Origin: Rubrivivax sp.
Lineage (GTDB): Bacteria > Pseudomonadota > Gammaproteobacteria > Burkholderiales > Burkholderiaceae_C
Assembly: GCA_004210455.1 (NCBI GenBank)
Contig: SEFA01000066.1
Location: 1 to 32,401 of the forward strand
Reading direction: 5' to 3'
DNA: 32,401 bases
The position numbers were made by a program, and so were the translations under genes. Under the pieces are notes generated by a model. It ran no database searches, had not been told where the DNA came from, and saw only the letters and a program-made list of their open reading frames with translations. Shown piece by piece: positions 1-19,041 of this stretch (the first letter of the stretch is position 1; the number at the start of each line of letters is the position of its first letter).

Positions 1-3000
1 CTGCTGGGTCGACAGGGCCTTGATCTGGCCGCTCGTGAGAGCGTTCAGATCGTCGGAGGTCAGGTTGCTGACCTGGCCGGTCGTCAGCGCGGCGACCTGC
101 TGGGTCGTCAGCGCGGCGATCTGGTCGGAGCCCAGCGCTTCCAGCTGGGCCGAGGTCAGCGCCTGCAGGGCGTTGGTCGCCAGGGCCTTCAGGTCAGCCG
201 TTTCGATGGCGGCCATCTGGTCGGTCGTCAGGCCGGCGACCTGCTTGCTGTTCAGCGCGGCGACCTGCGTCGAGTTCAGCGCGACGATCGCGTCGGTGCT
301 CAGCGCGCCGACCTGGGCGGAGCTCAGCGCGGCGACCTGCTGCGAGTTCAGCGCGGCGACGTCTTCGCTGGTCATCGTCGAGACCTGCGCGGTCGACAGC
401 GCGGCGACCTGCTGGGTCGACAGCGCCTTGATCTGGCCGCTGGTGAGGGCGTTCAGGTCATCGGAAGACAGGTTGCCGACCTGCGCGGTCGACAGCGAGG
501 CGACCTGGGCGGTCGTCAGCGCGGCGATCTGGTCGGAGCCCAGCGCGTCGAGCTGATCGGTGCCCAGGGCGCGCAGCGCCGCGGTGGACAGGGCCTTCAG
601 GTCACCCGTTTCGAGGGCGGCCATCTGGTCGGTCGTCAGACCGGCGACCTGCCTGCTGGTCAGCGCGGCGACCTGCGCCGAGCCCAGGGCGACGATCGCC
701 TCGGTGCTCAGGGCGCCGACCTGGGCGGAGCCCAGCGCCTGCACCTGCGCGGTGGTCAGCGCGGCGACGTCTTCGCTGGTCATCGTCGAGACCTGCGCGG
801 TCGACAGCGCGGCGACCTGCTGGGTCGACAGCGCCTTGATCTGAGCGCTCGTGAGGGCGTTCAGGTCGTCCGAGGACAGGTTGCCGACCTGCGCGGTCGT
901 CAGGGACGCGACCTGCACGGTCGTCAGCGCGGCGATCTGGTCGGAGCCCAGCGCGTCGAGCTGGTCGGTGCCCAGGGCGCGCAGCGCGACGGTGGACAGC
1001 GACTTCAGGTCACCCGTCTCGATCGCGGCGATCTGGTCGGTGGTGAGACCGGCGACCTGTCTGGTCGTCAGCGCGGCGACCTGCGTGGAGGTCAGGGCGA
1101 CGATGGATTCCGTGCTCAGCGCGCCGACCTGCGACGAGCTCAGCGCGGCGATCTGGTTGGTCGCCAGCGCGGCGACGTCCGCCGATTCCATCGTGTTGAT
1201 CTGGCCGGTCGTCAGCGCAGCGACCTGCTGGGTCGTCAGCGCCTTGATCTGGCCGCTGGTGAGGGCGTTCAGGTCATCCGAGGACAGGTTGCTCACCTGA
1301 CCGGTCGTCAGCGCGGCGACCTGCTGAGTGGTCAGCGCGGCGACCTGGTCGCTGCTCAGCGCGTCGAGCTGGGCGGTGCCGAGCGCGGCGATCTGGGCGG
1401 TGCCCAGGGCGCGCAACTGGCCGGACGTGAAGGCGCCGAAGTCGTCCGTCGCGAGCTGGCTGACCTGGCCGGTCGTCAGCGCGGCGACCTGCTGGGTCGT
1501 CAGCGCCTGGACCTGGTCGGTCGACAGGGCCTGCAGCTGGTCGCTGGTCAGCGCGCGCAGGGCGGCGGAGGACAGTGACTTCAGGTCGCCCGTTTCGATC
1601 GCGGCCATCTGGTCGGTCGTCAGGCCGGCGACCTGCTTGCTGGTCAGCGCGGCGACCTGGCCCGAGGTCAGGGCGACGATCGAGTCGGTGCTCAGCGCGC
1701 CGACCTGGGCCGAGCTCAGCGCGGCGACCTGGTGGGTGGCGAGCGCCTGCACGTCGGCGGATTCCATCGTCGAGACCTGGGCGGTCGACAGGGCGACGAT
1801 CTGTTGCGTGGACAGCGCCTTGATCTGACCGCTGGTCAGCGCGTTCAGGTCATCGGAGGTCAGGTTGCTCACCTGGCCGGTCGTCAGCGCGGCGACCTGC
1901 TGCGTCGACAGCGCGGCGATCTGGTTGCTGTCCAGGGCCTCCAACTGCGCGGAGGTCAGCGACTGCAGCGCGTTGGTGGCCATCGCCTTCAGGTCGCCCG
2001 ATTCGAGGGCAGCCATCTGGTCGGTGGTCAGGCCCGCGACCTGCTTGCTGTTGAGGGCGGCGACCTGTTGCGAGGTCAGCGCGACGACGGCATCGGTGCT
2101 CAGCGCGCCGAGCTGCGCCGAGCCGAGGGCGGCGACCTGCTGCGTGGTCAGCGCCTGCACGTCGGCGGATTCCATCGTGTTGACCTGCGCGGTCGTCAGG
2201 GCGGCCACCTGCGCGGTGCCCAGCGCCTTGATCTGCGCGCTGTTCAGCGCGTTCAGGTCATCGCTGGTCAGGCCGGCGACCTGCGCGGTCGTCAGCGAGG
2301 CCACCTGGACGGTGTTCAGCGCGGCGACCTGGTCGGAACCCAGCGCGTTCAGTTGGTCGGTGGTCAGGGCGCGCAGCGCGGTGGTGCTCAGCGCACGCAG
2401 GTCACCGGTCTCGATGGCGGCCATCTGGTCGGTGGTCAGGCCGGCGACCTGCTTGGTCGTCAGCGCGCCCACCTGGGCGGAGCTCAGGGCGACGATCGCG
2501 TCCGTGCTCAGCGCGCCGATCTGGGCCGAGCCCAGCGACTGCAGCTGCGCGGTGGTCAGCGCGGCGACGTCCTCGCTCGTCATCGTGGCGATCTGGCCGG
2601 TCGTCAGCGAGGCGACCTGGGCGGTCGACAGCGCCTTGATCTGACCGCTGGTCAGGGCGTTCAGGTCGTCGGAGGTGAGGTTGCTGATCTGGCCGGTCGT
2701 CAGCGAGGCGACCTGGGCGGTCGACAGCGCGGCGATCTGGTCGGAACCGAGCGCCTCGATCTGGTCGGTGCCCAGCGCGCGCAGCGCGGCGGTGGACAGC
2801 GCCTTCACGTCGCCCGTTTCCAGGGCGGCCATCTGGTCGGTGGTCAGGCCGGCGACCTGCTTGGTCGTCAGCGCGCCCACTTGCGCGGAGGTCAGCGCGG
2901 CGACGTTTTCCGTCGACAGCGCGCCGATCTGGGCCGAGCCCAGCGCGGCGACCTGCTGGGTCGTCAGCGCCTGCACGTCGGCCGATTCCATGCCGTTGAC

Positions 3001-6000
3001 CTGGCCGGTCGTCAGGGCGGCGACCTGGGCGGTGGAGAGCGCGCGGATCTGGGCCGAGCCCAGCGCGTTCAGGTCATCCGTGGCCAAGGCCTGGACCTGC
3101 GCCGTCGTCAGCGCCGCGACCTGGGCGGTCGTGAGCGCGGCGATCTGGTCGGAGTTCAGGGCGTCGATCTGGGCGGTCGTCAGGGCGCGCAGCGCGTTGG
3201 TCGACAGGGCCCGGACGTCCACCGTCTCGATGGCGCCGACCTGATCGGTCGTCAGGCCGCCGACCTGCTTGGTCGACAGCGGGGCGACCTGCTGCGAGCT
3301 CAGCGCGGCGATGTTCTCGGTCGACAGCGCGCCGACCTGGTCGGAATTCAGCGCGCCGATCTGCTGCGTGGTCAGCGCCTGGACGTCGCTGCTCTCCATC
3401 GTGGAGATCTGCGCGGTCGTCAGGGCGGCGACCTGGGCGGTCGACAGCGCCTTGATCTGGCCGCTCGTCAGCGCGTTCAGGTCGTCGGAGGTCAGGTTGG
3501 CGATCTGCGCGGTCGTCAGCGCGGCGACCTGGGCGGTCGTCAGCGCGGCGATCTGGTCGGAACCCAGCGCGGCGATCTGGTCGGTGCTCAGCGCGCGGAT
3601 GGCCGCGGTGCCCAGCGACTTCAGATCGCCCGTTTCGAGGGCCGCCATCTGGTCGGTCGTCAGGCCGGCGACCTGCTTGGTCGACAGCGCGGCCACCTGC
3701 GTGGACGTCAGGGCGACGATGTTCTCGGTCGACAGGGCGCCGACCTGGTCGGAGCTCAGCGCCTGCACCTGGCCGCTGGTCAGCGCCTGCACGTCGGCGC
3801 TTTCCATCGTCGAGACCTGGGCGGTCGACAGGGCGGCGACCTGGGCGGTGCCCAGGGCTCGGATCTGGGCCGAGCCCAGCGCGTTCAGGTCGTCGCTGGT
3901 CAGGCCCTGGACCTGGCCGGTCGTCAGCGCGGCGACCTGCTGGGTCGTCAGTGCGCCGACCTGGGCGGAACCCAGCGCGTCGAACTGGTCGGTGGTCAGC
4001 GAACGGATCGCGGCCGTGGACAGGGCGCGCAGATCCTGCGTTTCCATCGCGGCCATCTGGTCGGTCGTCAGACCGGCGATCTGCTTGGTCGACAGCGCGG
4101 CGACCTGGGCGGAGCTCAGCGCGACGATCGAATCGGTGCTCAGCGCGCCGATGTGGGCCGAGCCCAGCGCGACGACCTGCTGCGTGGTCAGCGCCTGGAC
4201 GTCGGCGCTTTCCATCGTGGAGACCTGGGCGGTCGACAGGGCGGCGACCTGGGCGGTGCCCAGGGCGCGGATCTGGGCCGAGCCCAGCGCGTTGAGGTCA
4301 TCGCTGGACATCGCCTGGACCTGGCCGGTCGTCAGCGCGGCGATCTGGCCGGTCGACAGGGCGCCGACCTGGTCGGAGTTCAGTGCGTCGAACTGTTCGG
4401 TGGTCAGCGAGCGGATCGCGGCCGTCGACATGGCGCGCAGGTCGGCGGTCTCGATGGCGGCAACCTGGTCGGTCGTCAGGCCGGCGATCTGCTTGGTCGA
4501 CAGCGCGGCGACCTGGGCGGAGCTCAGCGCGGCGATATTTTCCGTCGAGAGCGCGCCCACCTGGGCCGAGCTCAGCGCCTGGACCTGGCCGGTGGTCAGC
4601 GCCTGGACGTCGGCGCTTTCCATCGTGGAGACCTGGGCGGTCGACAGGGCGGCGACCTGGGCCGTGCCGAGCGCGCGGATCTGGGCCGAACCCAGGGCGT
4701 TCAGGTCGTCGCTGGACATGGCCTGGACCTGGCCCGTCGTCAGGACGGCGACCTGCTGGGTCGTCAGCGCGGCGACCTGGTCGGAATGCAGCGCGTCGAA
4801 CTGGTCGGTCGTCAGCGAGCGGATCGCGGCGGAAGACAGGGCGCGCAGGTCCTGCGACTCGATGGCGGCCATCTGGTCGGTCGACAGACCGGCCAGTTGC
4901 TTGGACGTGAGGGTCGCGAACTGGCCCGAGGTCAGCGCGACGATGGCGTCGGTGGACAGCGCGGCGATCTGGGCCGAACTCAGCGCGGCGACCTGGCCGG
5001 TGGTGAAGGCCTGGATGTCGGCGGACTCCATGCCCTGGACCTGGTCGGTCGACAGCGCGGCGATCTGGGCGGTGCCCAGGGCGCGGATCTGCGCGCTGTT
5101 CAGCGCGTTCAGTTCGTCGGTGGACAGCACGGCGACCTGGCCGGTCGTCAGCGCGCCGATCTGGGTGCTGGTCAGCGCCGAGACCTGGTCCGAGCTCAGC
5201 GCCTGGACCTGGTCGGTCGTCAGGGCGCGGATCGTCGCGGTCGACAGCGCCTTCATGTCGTCAGAGCTGATGGCCGCCATCTGGTCGGTCGTGAGGCCCT
5301 TGACCTGGGTGGAACTCAGCGCGCCGATCTGGCCGGAGCTCATCGCCTCGATCGAGTCGGTGCTCAGGGCGCCGACCTGGGACGAGCTCAGCGCGCGGAC
5401 CTGGGCAGTCGTCAGCGCCTGCACGTCGGTGCTGTTGACGCCGGCCAGCTGGTCGGTCGTCAGCGCGGCGATCTGCTGCGTGGTGATGGCGCGGATCTGG
5501 TTGGTGTCCAGGGCGGCGATTTCATCGCTGGCCAGCTGGCGGATCTGCTGCGTGGACAACGCGCCGATCTGGGCGGTGGTCAGCGCGGCGATCTGGTCGG
5601 AATTCAGGGCGGCGACCTGGTCGGTGCCCAGCGCCTTGACGGCGGCGGTGCTCAGCGCATGCACGGCGTCGGAGGTCAGCGCGGCGGCCTGGTCCGAGGT
5701 CAGCGCGGCGGCTTGCGTGCTGCTCAGCGCGGCGGCCTGGTTGGTCGCCAGAGCGGCGACGCCCTCGGTGGAGAGGGCGGCGACTTGTTGCGAGCTCAGT
5801 GCCTTGATCTGCTCGGTCTTCAGGGCCTGCAGGTCGTCGGAGGCCAGCGAGCCGATCAAGCTGGTGGCGATGGCGGCCACCTGCTGCGTGCTCAGCGCGC
5901 GGATCTGGTCGGACGCCAGGGCGTTCAGGTCGTCCGACTCCAGGTTCCGGACCTGGCTGGTGGTCATCGCGCCGACCTGCTTGGTCGTCATCGCGCCGAA

Positions 6001-6276
6001 CTGGTCGGAGCCCAGGGCGTTCAGCTGGGTACTGGTGAAGGTCTGCACCGCGGCCGTGGACAGGGCGCGCAGATCGTCGGACTCGATGGCCGCGATGTTG
6101 GTCGTCGTGAACAGCGAGACGGCCTTGGTGCCGAGCGTCGCGAACTGCGAGGTCGTCAGCGCCTGGAATTGCTCGGTGGTGAACGCAGCCCAGTCTTCGC
6201 TGGTCAGGCGCGCCAGGGTCGTCGACGTGAGGGCGGCGATCTGGTCGGTCGTCAGGTTGGTAATCAGCGATGCCAT
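1..6276 (-). CDS. Giant octapeptide-repeat protein, 3' end outside window
   Basis: The minus strand is open without a stop from an ATG at 6274-6276 to base 1, giving 2092 residues that continue past the left edge. Almost the whole protein is an 8-residue repeat of form [LMIF]-[TSGNE]-[TS]-x-[QDA]-[IVLF]-x-[AGS], for example LTTDQIAA, about 260 copies, starting within the first ten residues (MASLITNLTTDQIAAL). An upper layer repeats every 17 octads. I see no signal peptide, so if exported it would need a C-terminal signal (type I secretion or similar) beyond the window; this is inference. GGAG lies 8 nt before the ATG, and a sigma28-like promoter and a leader hairpin lie upstream. Composition is rich in A, L, T, S, Q and poor in K, C, W. 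Such proteins are often annotated as adhesins or generic repeat proteins; I do not know the fold or function. The strand choice is firm because only this frame gives the regular octad. Confidence 0.9.
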   Translation of the reverse strand, partial: MASLITNLTTDQIAALTSTTLARLTSEDWAAFTTEQFQALTTSQFATLGTKAVSLFTTTNIAAIESDDLRALSTAAVQTFTSTQLNALGSDQFGAMTTKQVGAMTTSQVRNLESDDLNALASDQIRALSTQQVAAIATSLIGSLASDDLQALKTEQIKALSSQQVAALSTEGVAALATNQAAALSSTQAAALTSDQAAALTSDAVHALSTAAVKALGTDQVAALNSDQIAALTTAQIGALSTQQIRQLASDEIAALDTNQIRAITTQQIAALTTDQLAGVNSTDVQALTTAQVRALSSSQVGALSTDSIEAMSSGQIGALSSTQVKGLTTDQMAAISSDDMKALSTATIRALTTDQVQALSSDQVSALTSTQIGALTTGQVAVLSTDELNALNSAQIRALGTAQIAALSTDQVQGMESADIQAFTTGQVAALSSAQIAALSTDAIVALTSGQFATLTSKQLAGLSTDQMAAIESQDLRALSSAAIRSLTTDQFDALHSDQVAALTTQQVAVLTTGQVQAMSSDDLNALGSAQIRALGTAQVAALSTAQVSTMESADVQALTTGQVQALSSAQVGALSTENIAALSSAQVAALSTKQIAGLTTDQVAAIETADLRAMSTAAIRSLTTEQFDALNSDQVGALSTGQIAALTTGQVQAMSSDDLNALGSAQIRALGTAQVAALSTAQVSTMESADVQALTTQQVVALGSAHIGALSTDSIVALSSAQVAALSTKQIAGLTTDQMAAMETQDLRALSTAAIRSLTTDQFDALGSAQVGALTTQQVAALTTGQVQGLTSDDLNALGSAQIRALGTAQVAALSTAQVSTMESADVQALTSGQVQALSSDQVGALSTENIVALTSTQVAALSTKQVAGLTTDQMAALETGDLKSLGTAAIRALSTDQIAALGSDQIAALTTAQVAALTTAQIANLTSDDLNALTSGQIKALSTAQVAALTTAQISTMESSDVQALTTQQIGALNSDQVGALSTENIAALSSQQVAPLSTKQVGGLTTDQVGAIETVDVRALSTNALRALTTAQIDALNSDQIAALTTAQVAALTTAQVQALATDDLNALGSAQIRALSTAQVAALTTGQVNGMESADVQALTTQQVAALGSAQIGALSTENVAALTSAQVGALTTKQVAGLTTDQMAALETGDVKALSTAALRALGTDQIEALGSDQIAALSTAQVASLTTGQISNLTSDDLNALTSGQIKALSTAQVASLTTGQIATMTSEDVAALTTAQLQSLGSAQIGALSTDAIVALSSAQVGALTTKQVAGLTTDQMAAIETGDLRALSTTALRALTTDQLNALGSDQVAALNTVQVASLTTAQVAGLTSDDLNALNSAQIKALGTAQVAALTTAQVNTMESADVQALTTQQVAALGSAQLGALSTDAVVALTSQQVAALNSKQVAGLTTDQMAALESGDLKAMATNALQSLTSAQLEALDSNQIAALSTQQVAALTTGQVSNLTSDDLNALTSGQIKALSTQQIVALSTAQVSTMESADVQALATHQVAALSSAQVGALSTDSIVALTSGQVAALTSKQVAGLTTDQMAAIETGDLKSLSSAALRALTSDQLQALSTDQVQALTTQQVAALTTGQVSQLATDDFGAFTSGQLRALGTAQIAALGTAQLDALSSDQVAALTTQQVAALTTGQVSNLSSDDLNALTSGQIKALTTQQVAALTTGQINTMESADVAALATNQIAALSSSQVGALSTESIVALTSTQVAALTTRQVAGLTTDQIAAIETGDLKSLSTVALRALGTDQLDALGSDQIAALTTVQVASLTTAQVGNLSSDDLNALTSAQIKALSTQQVAALSTAQVSTMTSEDVAALTTAQVQALGSAQVGALSTEAIVALGSAQVAALTSRQVAGLTTDQMAALETGDLKALSTAALRALGTDQLDALGSDQIAALTTAQVASLSTAQVGNLSSDDLNALTSGQIKALSTQQVAALSTAQVSTMTSEDVAALNSQQVAALSSAQVGALSTDAIVALNSTQVAALNSKQVAGLTTDQMAAIETADLKALATNALQALTSAQLEALGSDQIAALTTQQVAALTTGQVSNLTSDDLNALTSGQIKALSTQQ
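361..5832 (-). repeat. 408-bp (17-octad) super-repeat array inside the giant gene
   Basis: A marker octad (ESADVQA- or TSEDVAA-like on the minus strand, a gtc/gtcggcg block on the plus strand) starts at 361, 769, 1177, 1753, 2161, 2569, 2977, 3385, 3793, 4201, 4609, 5017 and 5425. Eleven of the twelve intervals are exactly 408 bp and one (1177 to 1753) is 576 bp, which is 24 octads. A weaker, in-phase marker (SDDLQA) occurs at 5833. The copies at 3793-5017 are the most alike. Confidence 0.92.
1271..1606 (-). repeat. 168-bp tandem duplication (7 octads) in the super-repeat array
   Basis: The one 576-bp interval holds an extra 168 bp. The stretch from about 1271 resembles the stretch from about 1439: the GTCATCCG/GTCGTCCG blocks at 1273 and 1441 are 168 bp apart and are followed by similar octads. 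The copies have diverged, so the expansion is not very recent. It keeps the octad register and the reading frame. Confidence 0.75.
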
Positions 6277-6292
6277 CTTGGAACTCCGTGAA

Positions 6293-6318
6293 CCTATGGG
6301 GGCGGATGCGCCCATAGG
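6293..6318 (-). promoter_or_regulatory. Leader hairpin before the giant repeat gene
   Basis: CCTATGGG at 6293-6300 pairs with CCCATAGG at 6311-6318; an inner GCG/CGC extends the stem past a small GG bulge. It sits about 17 nt upstream of the start codon of the repeat gene, just before the GGAG ribosome binding site, so it would be transcribed in that leader. A role in translation control or mRNA stability is inference. Confidence 0.6.
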
Positions 6319-6855: not shown

Positions 6856-7380
6856 ATGACGACGAATGCGACCCGGCCTTATCGGATCCTCGGGATCCAG
6901 CAGATCGCGATCGGCGGACCGGACAAGGCGGCGCTGCGTCGGCTGTGGGTGGACGTGCTGGGACTGCAGGTCATCGGGCATTTCGTGTCCGAGTCGGAAA
7001 ACGTCGATGAGGACATCTGCGCGATCGGCGAGGGCCCGCGGCGGATCGAGGTCGATCTGATGCAACCGCTGGATCCGGACAGGAAGCCGGCGGTCCATGC
7101 GACGCCGCTCAATCACGTCGGTCTGTGGGTCGACGATCTACCCAGGGCCGTCGAATGGATGACCGCGAACGGCGTTCGCCTGGCACCTGGCGGCATCCGC
7201 AAGGGTGCGGCGGGCCATGACATCTGCTTCATCCACCCCAAGTCCAGCGGCGAGTTCCCCATCGGCGGGGAGGGGGTGCTGATCGAGTTGGTGCAGGCGC
7301 CGCTAGAGGTGGTGACGGCCTTGGGCGGACCTGCCGCATCCAGCAGTCCCGGCGGATCAGGGGGGCCAGGCGAAGCCTGA
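6856..7380 (+). CDS. VOC-superfamily (glyoxalase / methylmalonyl-CoA epimerase-like) protein
   Basis: A 174-residue protein with two beta-alpha-beta-beta-beta modules of the vicinal-oxygen-chelate fold. Module 1 starts at [10 protein letters not shown] (11-20) and module 2 at [11 protein letters not shown] (85-95), ending in VLIELVQAP (141-149). [11 protein letters not shown] in module 2 resembles methylmalonyl-CoA epimerases. The expected metal ligands map to E65, H87 and E144, but the first ligand, usually His, is Gln (Q16). Members are small cytosolic metalloenzymes acting on thioesters, hemithioacetals or aromatics; the substrate here is not clear. The last 20 or so residues are a Gly/Ser/Pro tail. 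The ATG at 6856 has no clear Shine-Dalgarno sequence; an AT-rich tract lies just upstream. It converges on the next gene with an 11-bp gap. Confidence 0.82.
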
Positions 7381-14536: not shown

Positions 14537-15787
14537 ATGCTGCGTCTGTCGCTGATCGCCCTTGTCGTTGCATCCCTGCTTGCCGGTTGCGGCAAGTCCT
14601 CCCCCGACAAGAAGGCATCGCCCGCGGCCGAGGCGGCCAGCGCGCCCAGCCTGCTGGTGGCCGCCGAGGACGTGCAGACGCTGGGTGTCAGCGCCTACGC
14701 GAGCGGCCCGGTGATCACCGGCTCGATCCAGCCGGAACGTCGCGCCGACCTGCGCGCCGAACTGCAGGCCATCGTGCTGCAGGTCTACAAGGAAAACGGC
14801 GAGCGCGTGAAGCGCGGCGACCTGCTGGTGCGCCTGGACGACACCGCCATCCGCGACACGGTCCAGTCCGCCGACGAATCCGCCCGGGCGGCCTCGCAGA
14901 GTTTCGAACAGGCCGAGCGCCAGTACCAGCGCCTGAAGACGCTGCAGGCGCAGGGCATGAGCTCCATCCAGGCGATGGAAGACGCCGAGATCCGCCGCAA
15001 CAACGCGCAGAGCGACCTGGTCGCCGCGCGCGCCCGTGTGGCCACCGCGCGCCAGCAGCAGCAGCGCACCGAGGTGCGCGCGCCGTTCGACGGTGTCGTC
15101 AGCGATCGCAAGGTCTCGCCGGGCGATTCGGCCCAGATCGGCAAGGAACTGATCAAGGTGATGGACCCGGCGTCGATGCGCTTCGAGGGCCTGGTGTCCG
15201 CCGACCGCATGTCCGAGCTCAAGCTTGCGCAGGTCGTGTACTTCCGGGTCAACGGCTATCCGCAGGTGGACTTCCAGGGCAAGGTGCGCCGCATCGCGCA
15301 GGCCGCCAACGCCAACACCCGCCAGGTCGAGGTGCTGGTCGACTTCGCCGGCGCGCAGCAGCCCGGCGTGGCCGGCCTCTATGCGGAAGGGCGCGTGCAG
15401 ACCAACAGCGTCTCGGCGCTGATGGTGGCGGACGGCGCGCTGGTGCGCGAGGGCGACAAGTCCTTCGTCTGGCGCGTGGACGCCGGCAAGGTCTCGAAGA
15501 CCCCGGTGAACCTGGGTGCGCGGGACGACCGCCAGGGCCTCTACGTGGTGACCGGCGGCCTGAAGCAGGGCGATCGCATCCTGCGCAGCCCGACCAGCAC
15601 GCTGCTCGACGGTCAGCGCGTCGAGCTCAGCAAGGCCGCCGCGGCCACTGCGGCCCCCGCCATGACAAGCGCCAGCGGCACGCCGCCGACCGGGTTGACG
15701 AACTCGGGCTCGACCTCGACCTCCGCGGGCTCGACCGTGGTGCCGCTGCCCGTGCTGCCGGTGGCCTCCGCCGCCTCGGCCCCCTGA
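14537..15787 (+). CDS. RND efflux periplasmic adaptor lipoprotein (MFP)
   Basis: A 416-residue membrane-fusion protein. The N-terminus MLRLSLIALVVASLLAGCGK is a lipoprotein signal with lipobox LAGC (C18). Then follow the beta-barrel/lipoyl parts (ITGSIQPERRADLRAE, VKRGDLLVRLDD), a coiled-coil hairpin near 105-180 (ARAASQSFEQAERQYQR to VATARQQQ), the second lipoyl half (VRAPFDGVVSDRKVSPGDS) and membrane-proximal domains. A Ser/Thr/Ala/Pro-rich tail of about 45 residues ends it. It links the inner-membrane pump to an outer-membrane channel; no TolC-like gene is in the window. GGAG lies 9 nt before the start. It is co-transcribed with the pump gene (20-bp gap). Confidence 0.92.
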   Translation: MLRLSLIALVVASLLAGCGKSSPDKKASPAAEAASAPSLLVAAEDVQTLGVSAYASGPVITGSIQPERRADLRAELQAIVLQVYKENGERVKRGDLLVRLDDTAIRDTVQSADESARAASQSFEQAERQYQRLKTLQAQGMSSIQAMEDAEIRRNNAQSDLVAARARVATARQQQQRTEVRAPFDGVVSDRKVSPGDSAQIGKELIKVMDPASMRFEGLVSADRMSELKLAQVVYFRVNGYPQVDFQGKVRRIAQAANANTRQVEVLVDFAGAQQPGVAGLYAEGRVQTNSVSALMVADGALVREGDKSFVWRVDAGKVSKTPVNLGARDDRQGLYVVTGGLKQGDRILRSPTSTLLDGQRVELSKAAAATAAPAMTSASGTPPTGLTNSGSTSTSAGSTVVPLPVLPVASAASAP

Positions 15788-15807
15788 CGCGCACAGGAGC
15801 CTGAACC

Positions 15808-18800
15808 ATGTTCCTCTCCAATTTCTCGGTCAAGAAGCCGATCGCGATGATCGTGATCATCATCGGCTTGATGGCCCTGGGCCTGCTGGCCCTGTCCAAG
15901 CTGCGCGTCAACGAGCGGCCCGACGTCGACCTGCCGCTACTGGTGGTCAGCATCAGCTATCCCGGCGCGTCGCCGGAGACCTCCGAGCGCGAGATCGTCA
16001 ACCGCATCGAGAAGTCGCTGCAGAGCATCTCCGGCGTGAACGAGGTGCGTTCGACCTCGGGCGAAGGGTCGGCGCAGCTGCTGCTGTTCTTCAACTTCGA
16101 CAAGAACATGATCGAGGCGGCCGACGAGGTCCGCAACGCGATCGCCGCGGTCCGCCACAAGCTGCCGACCGAGATGCGCGAGCCCGTGCTTCAGCGCGTC
16201 GACCCGTCGGCGCAGCCGATCATGCAGCTGGCGCTGTCGTCCAGCAGCCAGTCGCATGCCGAGATCTCGCGGATGGCCGAGGACCAGTTCGCCGACCGCT
16301 TCCGCGCCATCCCGGGCGCCGCGACGGTGACGGTGAACGGGTCGCTCAAGCGCGAGCTGTCGGTGCTGCTGAACGCGCAGAAGCTGCGTGAGTTCAACGT
16401 CTCGGTGACCGAGGTCGTCAACGCGCTGCGCATGCAGAACACGACGGCACCGGTGGGCAAGGTGCGCGGACAGCTCGAGGACCAGAGCATCCGCCTGCTG
16501 GGCCGCATCGAGTCGCCGGCCGATTTCAACCAGATCGTGGTGAAGCGCTCGGGCAACGAGCTGATCCGCCTGGGGCAGGTGGCCACGGTGCAGGACGGCT
16601 TCGCGGAACAGACCGGCCTGTCGGTGCGCAACGGCCATCCGAACGTCGGCATCATGGTCACACGCTCGCGCGACGCGTCGACGGTGAGCGTGGCCAAGGA
16701 GGTCCGCAAGCTGGTCGAGGAGATCGGCAAGACGCTGCCCCAGGGCACCAAGCTCGAGGTGGTGCAGGACGGCGGGCAGGACGCGCAGGACAGCCTGAAC
16801 AACGTGATCCACGCGCTGGTGTTCGGCGCGGGCCTGACGATCTTCGTGGTCTACGTGTTCCTGAATTCCTGGCGTTCGACCATGATCACGGCGCTGTCGC
16901 TGCCGACCTCGGTGATCGCCGCGTTCATCGCGGTGTGGCTGTGCGGCTTCACGCTGAACTTCATGAGCCTGCTGGGCCTGTCGCTGGCGATCGGGGTGCT
17001 GATCGACGATGCGATCGTGGTCCGCGAGAACATCGTGCGTCACATGGAGCGCGGCGCCGACCGCCGCACGGCCGCATTGAAGGGCACGGCCGAGATCGGC
17101 CTGGCCGTCGCGGCGACGACCTTCTCGATCGTCGCCGTGTTCATCCCGGTGGCCTTCATGCCGGGCGTGTCCGGCGAATGGTTCCGGCCCTTCGGGCTGA
17201 CGGTGGTGGCCTCGGTGCTGGTGTCGCTGTTCATCTCGTTCACGCTGGACCCGATGCTGTCGGCGTTCTGGGGCGACCCCCCGGGGCACCATGAAGCGCC
17301 GAAGACGAACTGGGTGTCGAAGAAGCTGCACGCCTTCAACGAGTGGTTCGACCGCCAGGCCGACGGCTACGGCCATGTGATCGCTTGGGCGCTGCACCAC
17401 CGCACCTGGATGGCCGTGTTCGCGGTCCTGAGCTTCGTGCTGGCGATCTTCCTGCAGGTCACGATGGGCGGCACGAGCTTCCTGCCGGCCTCCGACTCCG
17501 GGACCATCGCCATCGAGGTGCGCACGCCGGCCTCGTCCAGCCTGGAATACGCACGGCTCAAGATGGGCGCCGCGTCCGCGCTGGCGCGCGAGATGCCCGA
17601 GACCGTGGCCACCAACGAGAGCGTGAACGCCAGCGGCGGCCGCGTCTACGTGGACCTGGGCAAGAGCACCCAGCGCAAGCGCAGCGCGGCCGAGATCGCC
17701 GCCGACCTGCGCACGCGGGTGGCGCGGCTGGTCGGGGCGGAGTACGTGGTGCTCGACGACCTGAACAACGGCGCGCAGAAGCCGGTGCAGATCCGGTTCT
17801 CCGGCGCGGACTCGCGCAAGCTGATGGAGATCACCACCGACTACATGGAAAAACTGCGCCGCGTGCCGGGCGCGGTGGACGTGGGCCTGTCGGAGCAGGA
17901 TCCGCAGAACGAGCTGCAGATCGAGCTCAACCGCGGCCTGGCCAATACGCTGGGGATCTCGGTGGGCGATGCGGCCAACTCGCTGCGGGTGGCCTTCGCC
18001 GGCGTGGAGGTCGGCGACTGGATCGACCCGAGCAGCGAGACGCGCGACGTCGCGGTGCGGCTGGCGCCGGAAGACCGCGTCGACGCGAGCAACATCGAGC
18101 GCCTGCCGATCGCCGTGAGCGGCGCCGGCGTGATGGTGCCGCTGGAGCAGATCGCCACGGTGACCATGGGCAAGGGGCCGGCCAAGATCCAGCATGCGGA
18201 CGGCAAGCGGATGATCGCGGTGTCGGCCAACGCGCACGGCCGCTCGCCCGGCGAGGTCACCAGCGACGCGCTGAAGCTGGCGAAGTCCATCAACTTCCCG
18301 CCCGGTTACGGCATCGAGCTGGCGGGCGCGGCCAAGGACCAGCAGGAGGTGTTCAGCGCGATGGGCATCGCGCTGGCCTCGGGCATCGGCCTGATGTACC
18401 TGATCCTGGTGATGCAGTTCGGCAGCTTCACCGCGCCGCTGGGCGTGATGCTGTCCCTGCCGCTGTCGCTGATCGGCGTGGTGGTGGCGCTGCTGCTGAC
18501 CAAGGGCACGCTGAACCTGATGAGCTTCATTGGGATCATCATGCTGGCCGGCCTGGTGGCGAAGAACGCCATCCTGCTGCTGGACGCGGCGCGCCAGGAG
18601 GAGGCGGCCGGCGTGCCGCGCGAGGAGGCGCTGATGCACGCGGGCCGCAAGCGCTTCCGTCCCATCCTGATGACGACCTTCGCGCTGATCGCCGGCATGC
18701 TGCCGGTGGCGGTGGGCATCGGCGAGGGCGGCGAGTTCTACCGCCCGATGGCGGTGGCCATCATCGGCGGCACGATCACGTCGACCTTCCTGACGCTGCT

Positions 18801-19041
18801 GATGGTGCCGAGCTTCTACGACAGCATCGAGATCAAGCGCGACAGCTTCCTGGCGAAGTTCCACCGTCGCGAGGCGCGCTGGACGACGGCGGGGGCGCTG
18901 CTCGCGGGCATCGTCGAATTCGTGCTGTTCCTGACCTTCGTGCGCTTCGTGTTCCGTTTGTTGAAGCGTGCCTGGGACATGGTCAGCGGCAAGCACCGCC
19001 GCCCGGTCGACTTCACGGCCCACGGCGCGGGCGACGACTGA
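15808..19041 (+). CDS. RND efflux pump inner-membrane transporter (HAE1/AcrB type)
   Basis: A 1077-residue proton-driven multidrug exporter of usual family length plus a C-terminal extension. It begins [16 protein letters not shown], has two large periplasmic loops and twelve membrane spans. The proton-relay residues are visible: D400 and D401 in [13 protein letters not shown] and K919 in [12 protein letters not shown]. The signature [18 protein letters not shown] lies in the first porter domain. After the usual end, about 40 residues include an extra hydrophobic stretch ([24 protein letters not shown]) and a basic cytoplasmic tail. AGGAG lies 8-9 nt before the ATG. Together with the upstream adaptor it forms the inner-membrane half of a tripartite pump; substrates unknown. 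Confidence 0.95.

Follow-up and report, generated by a model that had tools for sequence, protein, structure and literature searches.

The 32,401-nucleotide stretch of DNA analysed here, from a Rubrivivax sp. of the Roseateles/Mitsuaria group (hereafter the window; assembly GCA_004210455.1, contig SEFA01000066.1) begins, on the minus strand, with a fragment of a gene, gene A, encoding a giant array of octapeptide repeats (octads). Our analysis leaves room for a seemingly new Gram-negative system in which an enzyme of the O-GlcNAc transferase (OGT) family, paired with type I export, would coat the first residue of every octad helix with sugar; the product would be a mucin-like rod with a fixed 362 octads, a counterpart of the serine-rich repeat adhesins with another scaffold and another exporter, and a natural substrate of bacterial OGT homologues. 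For this system in its entirety the balance was even. The array, its Pfam family, the fold of a C-terminal self-processing-module (SPM)-like domain, the fixed length, the co-occurrence of the glycosyltransferase GT41 with a type I secretion system, a partial genomic linkage and a correlation at octad position 3 were obtained by computation, and from these we infer every step after translation, namely glycosylation, export, surface location and role.

The minus-strand frame 1..6315 was open up to the left edge of the window, with 2,105 residues from its first ATG and 2,092 from the ATG at 6276. The window spans bases 1-32401 of contig C38; its position 1 is also the first base of the contig, so gene A is truncated by the assembly. 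A single octad phase of 260 units ran through residues 20-2,100 of the frame with zero indels, and 255 of the 260 octads fitted the in-phase pattern [LMIF]-x-[TS]-x-x-[IVLMF]-x-x; 1,000 composition shuffles, each scored at the best of the 8 phases, reached 5.7 on average and 11 at most. The original prediction, made from the letters alone, had given at least 2,092 residues and about 260 octads on this strand, and these figures were reproduced. The consensus of 262 units was L (85%), T/S (68%), T/S (99%) and A/D/G at positions 1-4, and Q (69%) or D (16%), V/I/L (91%), A with other residues, and A (76%) at positions 5-8. A higher-order period of 136 residues, equal to 17 octads, was also detected, with an identity of 0.70 at this lag. 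The ATG at 6276 was favoured as the likely start (Table 1), since all 13 complete gene A copies of the genus began with MASLIT and the open frames of loci L017, L023 and L024 started merely 6 residues upstream of the Met of this motif.

Table 1. Features annotated at the left end of the window.
Feature	Coordinates	Strand	Remarks
Gene A coding sequence	1..6276	-	Likely start ATG at 6276; runs off the contig at position 1, C-terminus absent
Octad array (PF20080, ALTTAQ repeat; 136-aa, 17-octad higher-order unit)	16..6255	-	260 in-phase octads, no indel
Upstream in-frame extension to an earlier ATG	6277..6315	-	Probably untranslated
272-aa piece (34 octads) used for structure prediction	3424..4239	-	AlphaFold model ma92681a61eef

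The octads matched the Pfam family PF20080 (ALTTAQ repeat) with 1,976.7 bits in 77 stretches, the curated cut-off being 26.4; the unit is the same, and Pfam supplies the name and a 38-position model. The best sequence match in the PDB was HeliScrew4 (9zem, 120 residues; perhaps a designed protein, a guess from its name), with a phmmer E-value of 1.5e-17 over 110 residues. Its octads read mostly L-[TS]-P-x-x-[VIF]-A-A; it differs in length, with about 14 octads to the natural protein's about 362, and at position 3, which is mostly Pro in place of the natural Ser/Thr, so that Ser/Thr appears dispensable for the fold at this position. The likeness is one of sequence only, 9zem being absent from the best 50 of 402 Foldseek matches to the octad model. 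The literature searches found no paper describing a fold or role for PF20080, and none giving an octad function under either the ALTTAQ repeat or HeliScrew4. The original description of a protein with no recognised domain was replaced by that of a PF20080 protein with an FrpC-SPM-like module further along the gene and in related genes. Of the outcome that the original prediction had named as refuting, placement of the octad in a well-characterised family of known structure and function, only half was obtained: a named family and a sequence likeness to a solved structure were found; a paper on function was not.

In the AlphaFold model of a 272-residue piece (pLDDT 96.5), 34 helices were formed, one short helix per octad, with position 2 as the helix N-cap and position 3 as the first helical residue. 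This agreed with the earlier suggestion of a capped short helix per octad stacking into a solenoid, and such a stacked short-helix solenoid is very probably the fold adopted, although AlphaFold confidence can be inflated for repeat proteins. Export route and role, the further points raised in the original prediction, likewise proved to be the relevant ones to ask about. The mesothelin ectodomain (8cyh, 7ued) gave the top matches among the best 50 of 402 Foldseek matches (E-values of 8e-5 to 6e-4); with a TM score of 0.43 or less and an rmsd of 9 Å or more, no relation is claimed.

The C-terminal part was analysed through relatives and a second contig of the same genome. Complete relatives carried 360-363 octads followed by an FrpC-like Ca2+ module with the SPM fold and a short tail. 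In named genomes 28 loci were found, the closest being that of Roseateles noduli HZ7 (98% across the query sequence); their octads ran from residue ~8 up to the SPM-like domain, after which came the tail. Contig C52 (locus L009) of the Rubrivivax genome starts within an octad frame that stays open for 1,016 residues and closes with an FrpC-SPM-like domain plus a short tail, and a second octad gene comes after it; C38 and C52 were treated as separate, unjoined contigs. The L009 module matched the FrpC SPM (6sjw) with a phmmer E-value of 4.1e-38, and that of the orthologue in L016 gave a Foldseek TM score of 0.82 by target length. Fold and Asp/Asn-rich Ca2+ loops are shared with the FrpC SPM (6sjw, 6sjx), whereas the residue preceding the conserved Pro was Thr (28) or Ser (8) in 36/36 octad-SPM rows. 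With the scissile Asp replaced in this way the module should not self-cleave, and we refer to an SPM-like fold and not to a self-processing module. It differs further in being fused to octads instead of RTX repeats, and the RTX motif GGxGxD was found in none of the octad proteins scanned. The original prediction had proposed a search for the C-terminus (RTX, type I secretion signal or anchor); the relatives supplied an FrpC-SPM-like module and a tail, and no RTX GGxGxD; the window's own contig ends before this region. The tail ended in PLI or PLL in 32/36 octad-SPM rows, usually preceded by a D/E-rich patch, and this end may be an export signal. FrpC itself is type I-secreted (PMC5233953). In Duganella aquatilis (L041), the octad-SPM gene adjoins flagellar genes (Flagellin_N, FlgI) and its product has a C-terminus without PLI.

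A candidate export system was found elsewhere in the genome. Contig C146 encodes an LssB-type type I ATPase above its family cut-off with HlyD adjoining, and the surrounding locus (L069) consists of four consecutive genes for a TPR-GT41 protein, LssB, HlyD and OEP. The GT41 protein (L069 6535-8616) matched PF13844 with 257.7 bits and carries TPRs N-terminal to the GT41 domain. It was closest to the bacterial enzyme XcOGT (2jlb; 3e-78) and then to human OGT, and over 460 aligned residues it kept those at His218 and Lys388 of XcOGT, which we take to matter for catalysis. The TPR and GT41 layout is common to the bacterial and human OGTs; the difference is that here the gene adjoins those of a type I secretion system, as well as octad genes in several genera. 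Co-occurrence was analysed in 60 relatives, 21 with octads and 39 without. A GT41 orthologue (58-100% identity) directly beside an LssB orthologue (61-100%) was present in 20/21 octad-bearing relatives and in 0/39 octad-free ones, and by genus the pair was found in 5/6 octad-bearing against 0/39 octad-free (Fisher 5e-6). Lesser matches reached at most 42% identity for GT41 and 47% for LssB. In the exception, genome G027, a different GT41 lies at a distance of 4.3 kb from the octad gene.

Furthermore, GT41 genes were found close to octad genes in part of the sample. PF20080 is rare, occurring in 3/274 genomes searched in the class sample and 20/398 in the phylum sample (this genome counted in both), the samples having been set at 300 and 400 genomes. 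Linkage, defined as a GT41 of 100 bits or more within 25 kb of octads, was scored on 46 octad contigs of 27 genomes, taken from this genome, five relatives of the family and two genomes of the class, together with all octad contigs listed for the phylum sample; 15 other genomes of the window's genus lie outside this set. Eighteen of the 46 contigs were linked, representing 17/27 genomes and 10/13 genera. In the control, GT41 over 30 bits appeared in 0/20 stretches of 20 kb (Fisher 6e-4), drawn from only five of these genomes and shorter than most octad flanks. Linked contigs were counted at any flank length, and 10 of the 28 unlinked ones had less than 15 kb read. The octad-GT41 distance was 135 bp in G683 and 172 bp in G663:C2, LssB/HlyD often sit between the two genes, and in G022, G028, G020 and G026 the same gene set and the octad genes were 4-25 kb apart. 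The linkage was 17/33 on the first, hand-picked contigs and 18/46 once 13 further phylum-sample contigs were added; with this enlargement the linked fraction fell, the position-3 contrast described below rose and the counter-result in genus g366 appeared, and confidence in the mechanism proposed below was lowered slightly. In addition, GT4, GT2, DUF5672, acyltransferase, aminotransferase and sugar-dehydratase genes were found near octad genes in several genera. Adjoining the octad gene of G425:C92, a frame of 3,781 residues (L095 2254-13596, minus strand) contains 8 GT41 stretches and many TPRs, and it may encode a multi-catalytic OGT-like protein. Several giant octad genes were present in each of the g366 genomes G388, G425, G436 and G448, on up to 4-5 contigs and mostly with no nearby GT41.

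Ser/Thr content followed linkage at one octad position. Octads were identified by positions 1, 6 and 8 alone, with positions 2-3 left out of the calling. The mean position-3 Ser/Thr fraction was 0.83 on the 18 linked contigs and 0.48 on the 18 unlinked contigs for which 15 kb or more of flank was read (Mann-Whitney p=4e-5), or 0.54 on all 28 unlinked contigs (p=5e-5), whereas position 2 showed 0.66 against 0.64 (p=0.70). With genus means (10 linked and 6 unlinked, three genera being on both sides) the p-value for position 3 was 0.006. As judged from these sequences, position 3 is a candidate for the main glycan acceptor, a proposal that falls just short of an even call.

The following mechanism would join these results. 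The gene A product, of about 3,150 residues and about 362 octads, would stack as a solenoid of one-and-a-half-turn helices. The cytosolic OGT-like TPR-GT41, whose gene is clustered with those for the LssB ATPase, HlyD and a TolC-type OEP, would glycosylate many octad Ser/Thr residues, most likely at position 3, and the sugars could be extended by GT4/GT2-type enzymes encoded nearby. Export through the LssB-HlyD-OEP type I system would proceed C-terminus first; outside, the FrpC-SPM-like module would bind Ca2+ and fold into a cap without self-cleavage, leaving a sugar-coated rod at or beyond the cell surface. Given the co-occurrence and the linkage, type I export of the octad protein is likely. 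Glycosylation of the octads by this GT41, for which the position-3 correlation is an indirect basis, is fairly probable, and the combined sequence of cytosolic O-glycosylation and then type I export, leaving aside the position-3 and spacer details, is mildly favoured.

Several observations weigh against this mechanism. GT41 proteins are common, with some match at 1e-40 in 39/60 relatives, and stop codons interrupted 3 of the 20 GT41 orthologue matches (G001, G008, G026). G027 had no LssB or HlyD above the family cut-offs. Linkage was lacking on 28/46 octad contigs, 18 of these with at least 15 kb read, and in genus g366 just 2/22 octad contigs were linked. Around the 28 named loci, covered mostly for 10 kb on one side, and in the window, GT41, LssB or HlyD over 60 bits was found in 0/29. 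The window's genus does have the gene set, at a distance: 0.7 Mb on the single contig of G012. The position-3 trend was absent within g366 (linked 0.51-0.70, unlinked 0.42-0.75; 22 contigs), the linked contig G663:C2 reached a fraction of 0.35, the unlinked G366:C69 reached 0.93 (a linked octad gene being present on C56 of the same genome), and gene B, the second octad gene of the genus, had about 0.65. Ser/Thr at position 3 may serve the structure within a single sub-lineage, and kinship among the genomes makes the p-values too optimistic. Finally, octad-calpain proteins on contig C49 of this genome, with a position-3 Ser/Thr fraction of 0.09, adjoin a type I system without GT41, so octads can do without this enzyme. 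In that locus (L010; G000:C49 66.5-78.4 kb) two octad-like proteins flank a type I secretion set (OEP, C39-type ABC, HlyD); one has a calpain-family domain (PF00648, 38 bits) amid its octads, the second shows the same GDCWLV motif, and by sequence the pair looks like a secreted octad-protease.

The C49 proteins and the flat position-3 trend in g366, together with sugar genes of O-antigen type close to octads in several genera, speak for an unglycosylated, type I-secreted adhesin or spacer, its rod sitting in or anchoring to O-antigen or exopolysaccharide while the GT41 modifies something else. This explanation is nevertheless unlikely: GT41, a protein-glycosyltransferase family, stood directly beside LssB in 20/20 genomes having the pair, and across all contigs position-3 Ser/Thr, unlike position 2, tracked GT41 linkage. 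Less probable again is a GT41 acting mainly as a secretion chaperone, in which the TPR superhelix, or a sugar at the helix start, would keep the octads unfolded for type I export. The TPRs lie N-terminal to GT41, the proposed acceptor residue comes first in the helix, and in octads without GGxGxD motifs Ca2+ cannot gate folding; the retention of catalytic-type residues, however, makes sugar transfer likely, and a chaperone role is compatible with glycosylation before export. A cytosolic structural or scaffold protein would account for the confident AlphaFold folding of the octads alone and for the absence, by eye, of a Sec-type N-terminal signal, but it is very improbable given the co-occurrence and linkage of LssB and a Ca2+ module of FrpC-SPM type, a domain of type I-secreted proteins. 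A TALE-like nucleic-acid-binding solenoid is the least probable reading despite phmmer matches to TALE repeats (E-values down to 5.8e-12), as these reflect the helix motif LTPEQVVAIA, HeliScrew4 scores better, the octad has 8 residues against the 33-35 of TALE repeat units, and no TALE stood among the best 50 of 402 Foldseek matches.

The length of the array was constant within the genus. The distance between the start Met and the Ser/Thr-Pro that opens the SPM-like domain was 2,907 residues in 13/13 complete gene A copies (L011, L016-L020, L022-L026, L154, L155); L036 and L037 (interrupted frames), L043 (no octad frame) and the contig-truncated L014 and L021 were left out, and L156 and L157, repeats of L020 and L016, were counted once. 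A gap-free, position-by-position comparison of eleven genus genes and the window piece gave 79-97% identity, while adjacent 136-residue units inside one array shared 63-70%. When 80-residue blocks were compared with L016, the best match lay at shift 0 for 30-33 of 36 blocks in ten comparisons and for 25/26 in the window; the remainder matched better 17, 24 or 34 octads off, in a repeat-like manner and with no net shift. The ratio of non-synonymous to synonymous substitution rates (dN/dS) was 0.26-0.36 at dS 0.22-0.56 in seven gene A pairs. The longest exact DNA repeats in the arrays measured at least 52-188 bases, so gain or loss of units is possible, yet the net length is unchanged. Gene B, of about 155 octads, comes after gene A and encodes 1,244 residues in 12/14 cases and 1,243 in L017 and in Paucibacter L027. 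The L027 gene A is longer, with 3,427 residues and 65 octads more, and Pelomonas and other relatives show different periods (192, 355, 386, 574). The constant length in the genus suggests a spacer or reach function over a length-variable adhesin; this is our best guess for the role, with adhesion as the alternative, and a fixed-length spacer at the cell surface is put forward tentatively. The arrays of L036 and L037 (Pelomonas sp. Root1237) are split into several frames with ambiguous bases, possibly sequencing errors in the repeats; unlike these, Root1217 (L035, L038) has long open octad arrays.

Other genes were noted around the octad loci. Between gene B and a GT4 gene, a protein of 1,287-1,311 residues is encoded (L009 7859-11722; L016 15817-19749), the L009 copy having no Pfam match; among the loci read it was confined to this genome and R. 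noduli. The GT4 gene is followed, across much of the genus, by a DUF5672 gene (L018 16817-17581) and one with no Pfam match (17571-18647), perhaps both glycan enzymes, and then by a chemotaxis receptor. In the window, the divergent neighbour of gene A (6856-7380, plus strand) is 88% identical over 158 residues to the Glyoxalase_4 protein in the corresponding position of L016, and an HlyD-family adaptor with an AcrB-type RND pump (14537-19041, plus strand) is not the adaptor assigned to type I export of the octads.

Serine-rich repeat proteins with GtfA/B and HMW1 with HMW1C are glycosylated giant adhesins that use accessory Sec or two-partner secretion. What they have in common with the octad system as proposed here is a giant, repeat-built surface protein served by a dedicated cytosolic glycosyltransferase, and the difference lies in the probable type I secretion and in the folded helical octad. 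No paper joining "O-GlcNAc transferase" with "type I secretion" was found in the literature search. If the proposed mechanism is true, the octad protein would be a physiological substrate for the bacterial OGT (GT41) homologues and would tie O-glycosylation to type I secretion. The helical octad rod would also join the known scaffolds of giant bacterial proteins, and its constancy in length makes the idea of a molecular ruler directly testable.

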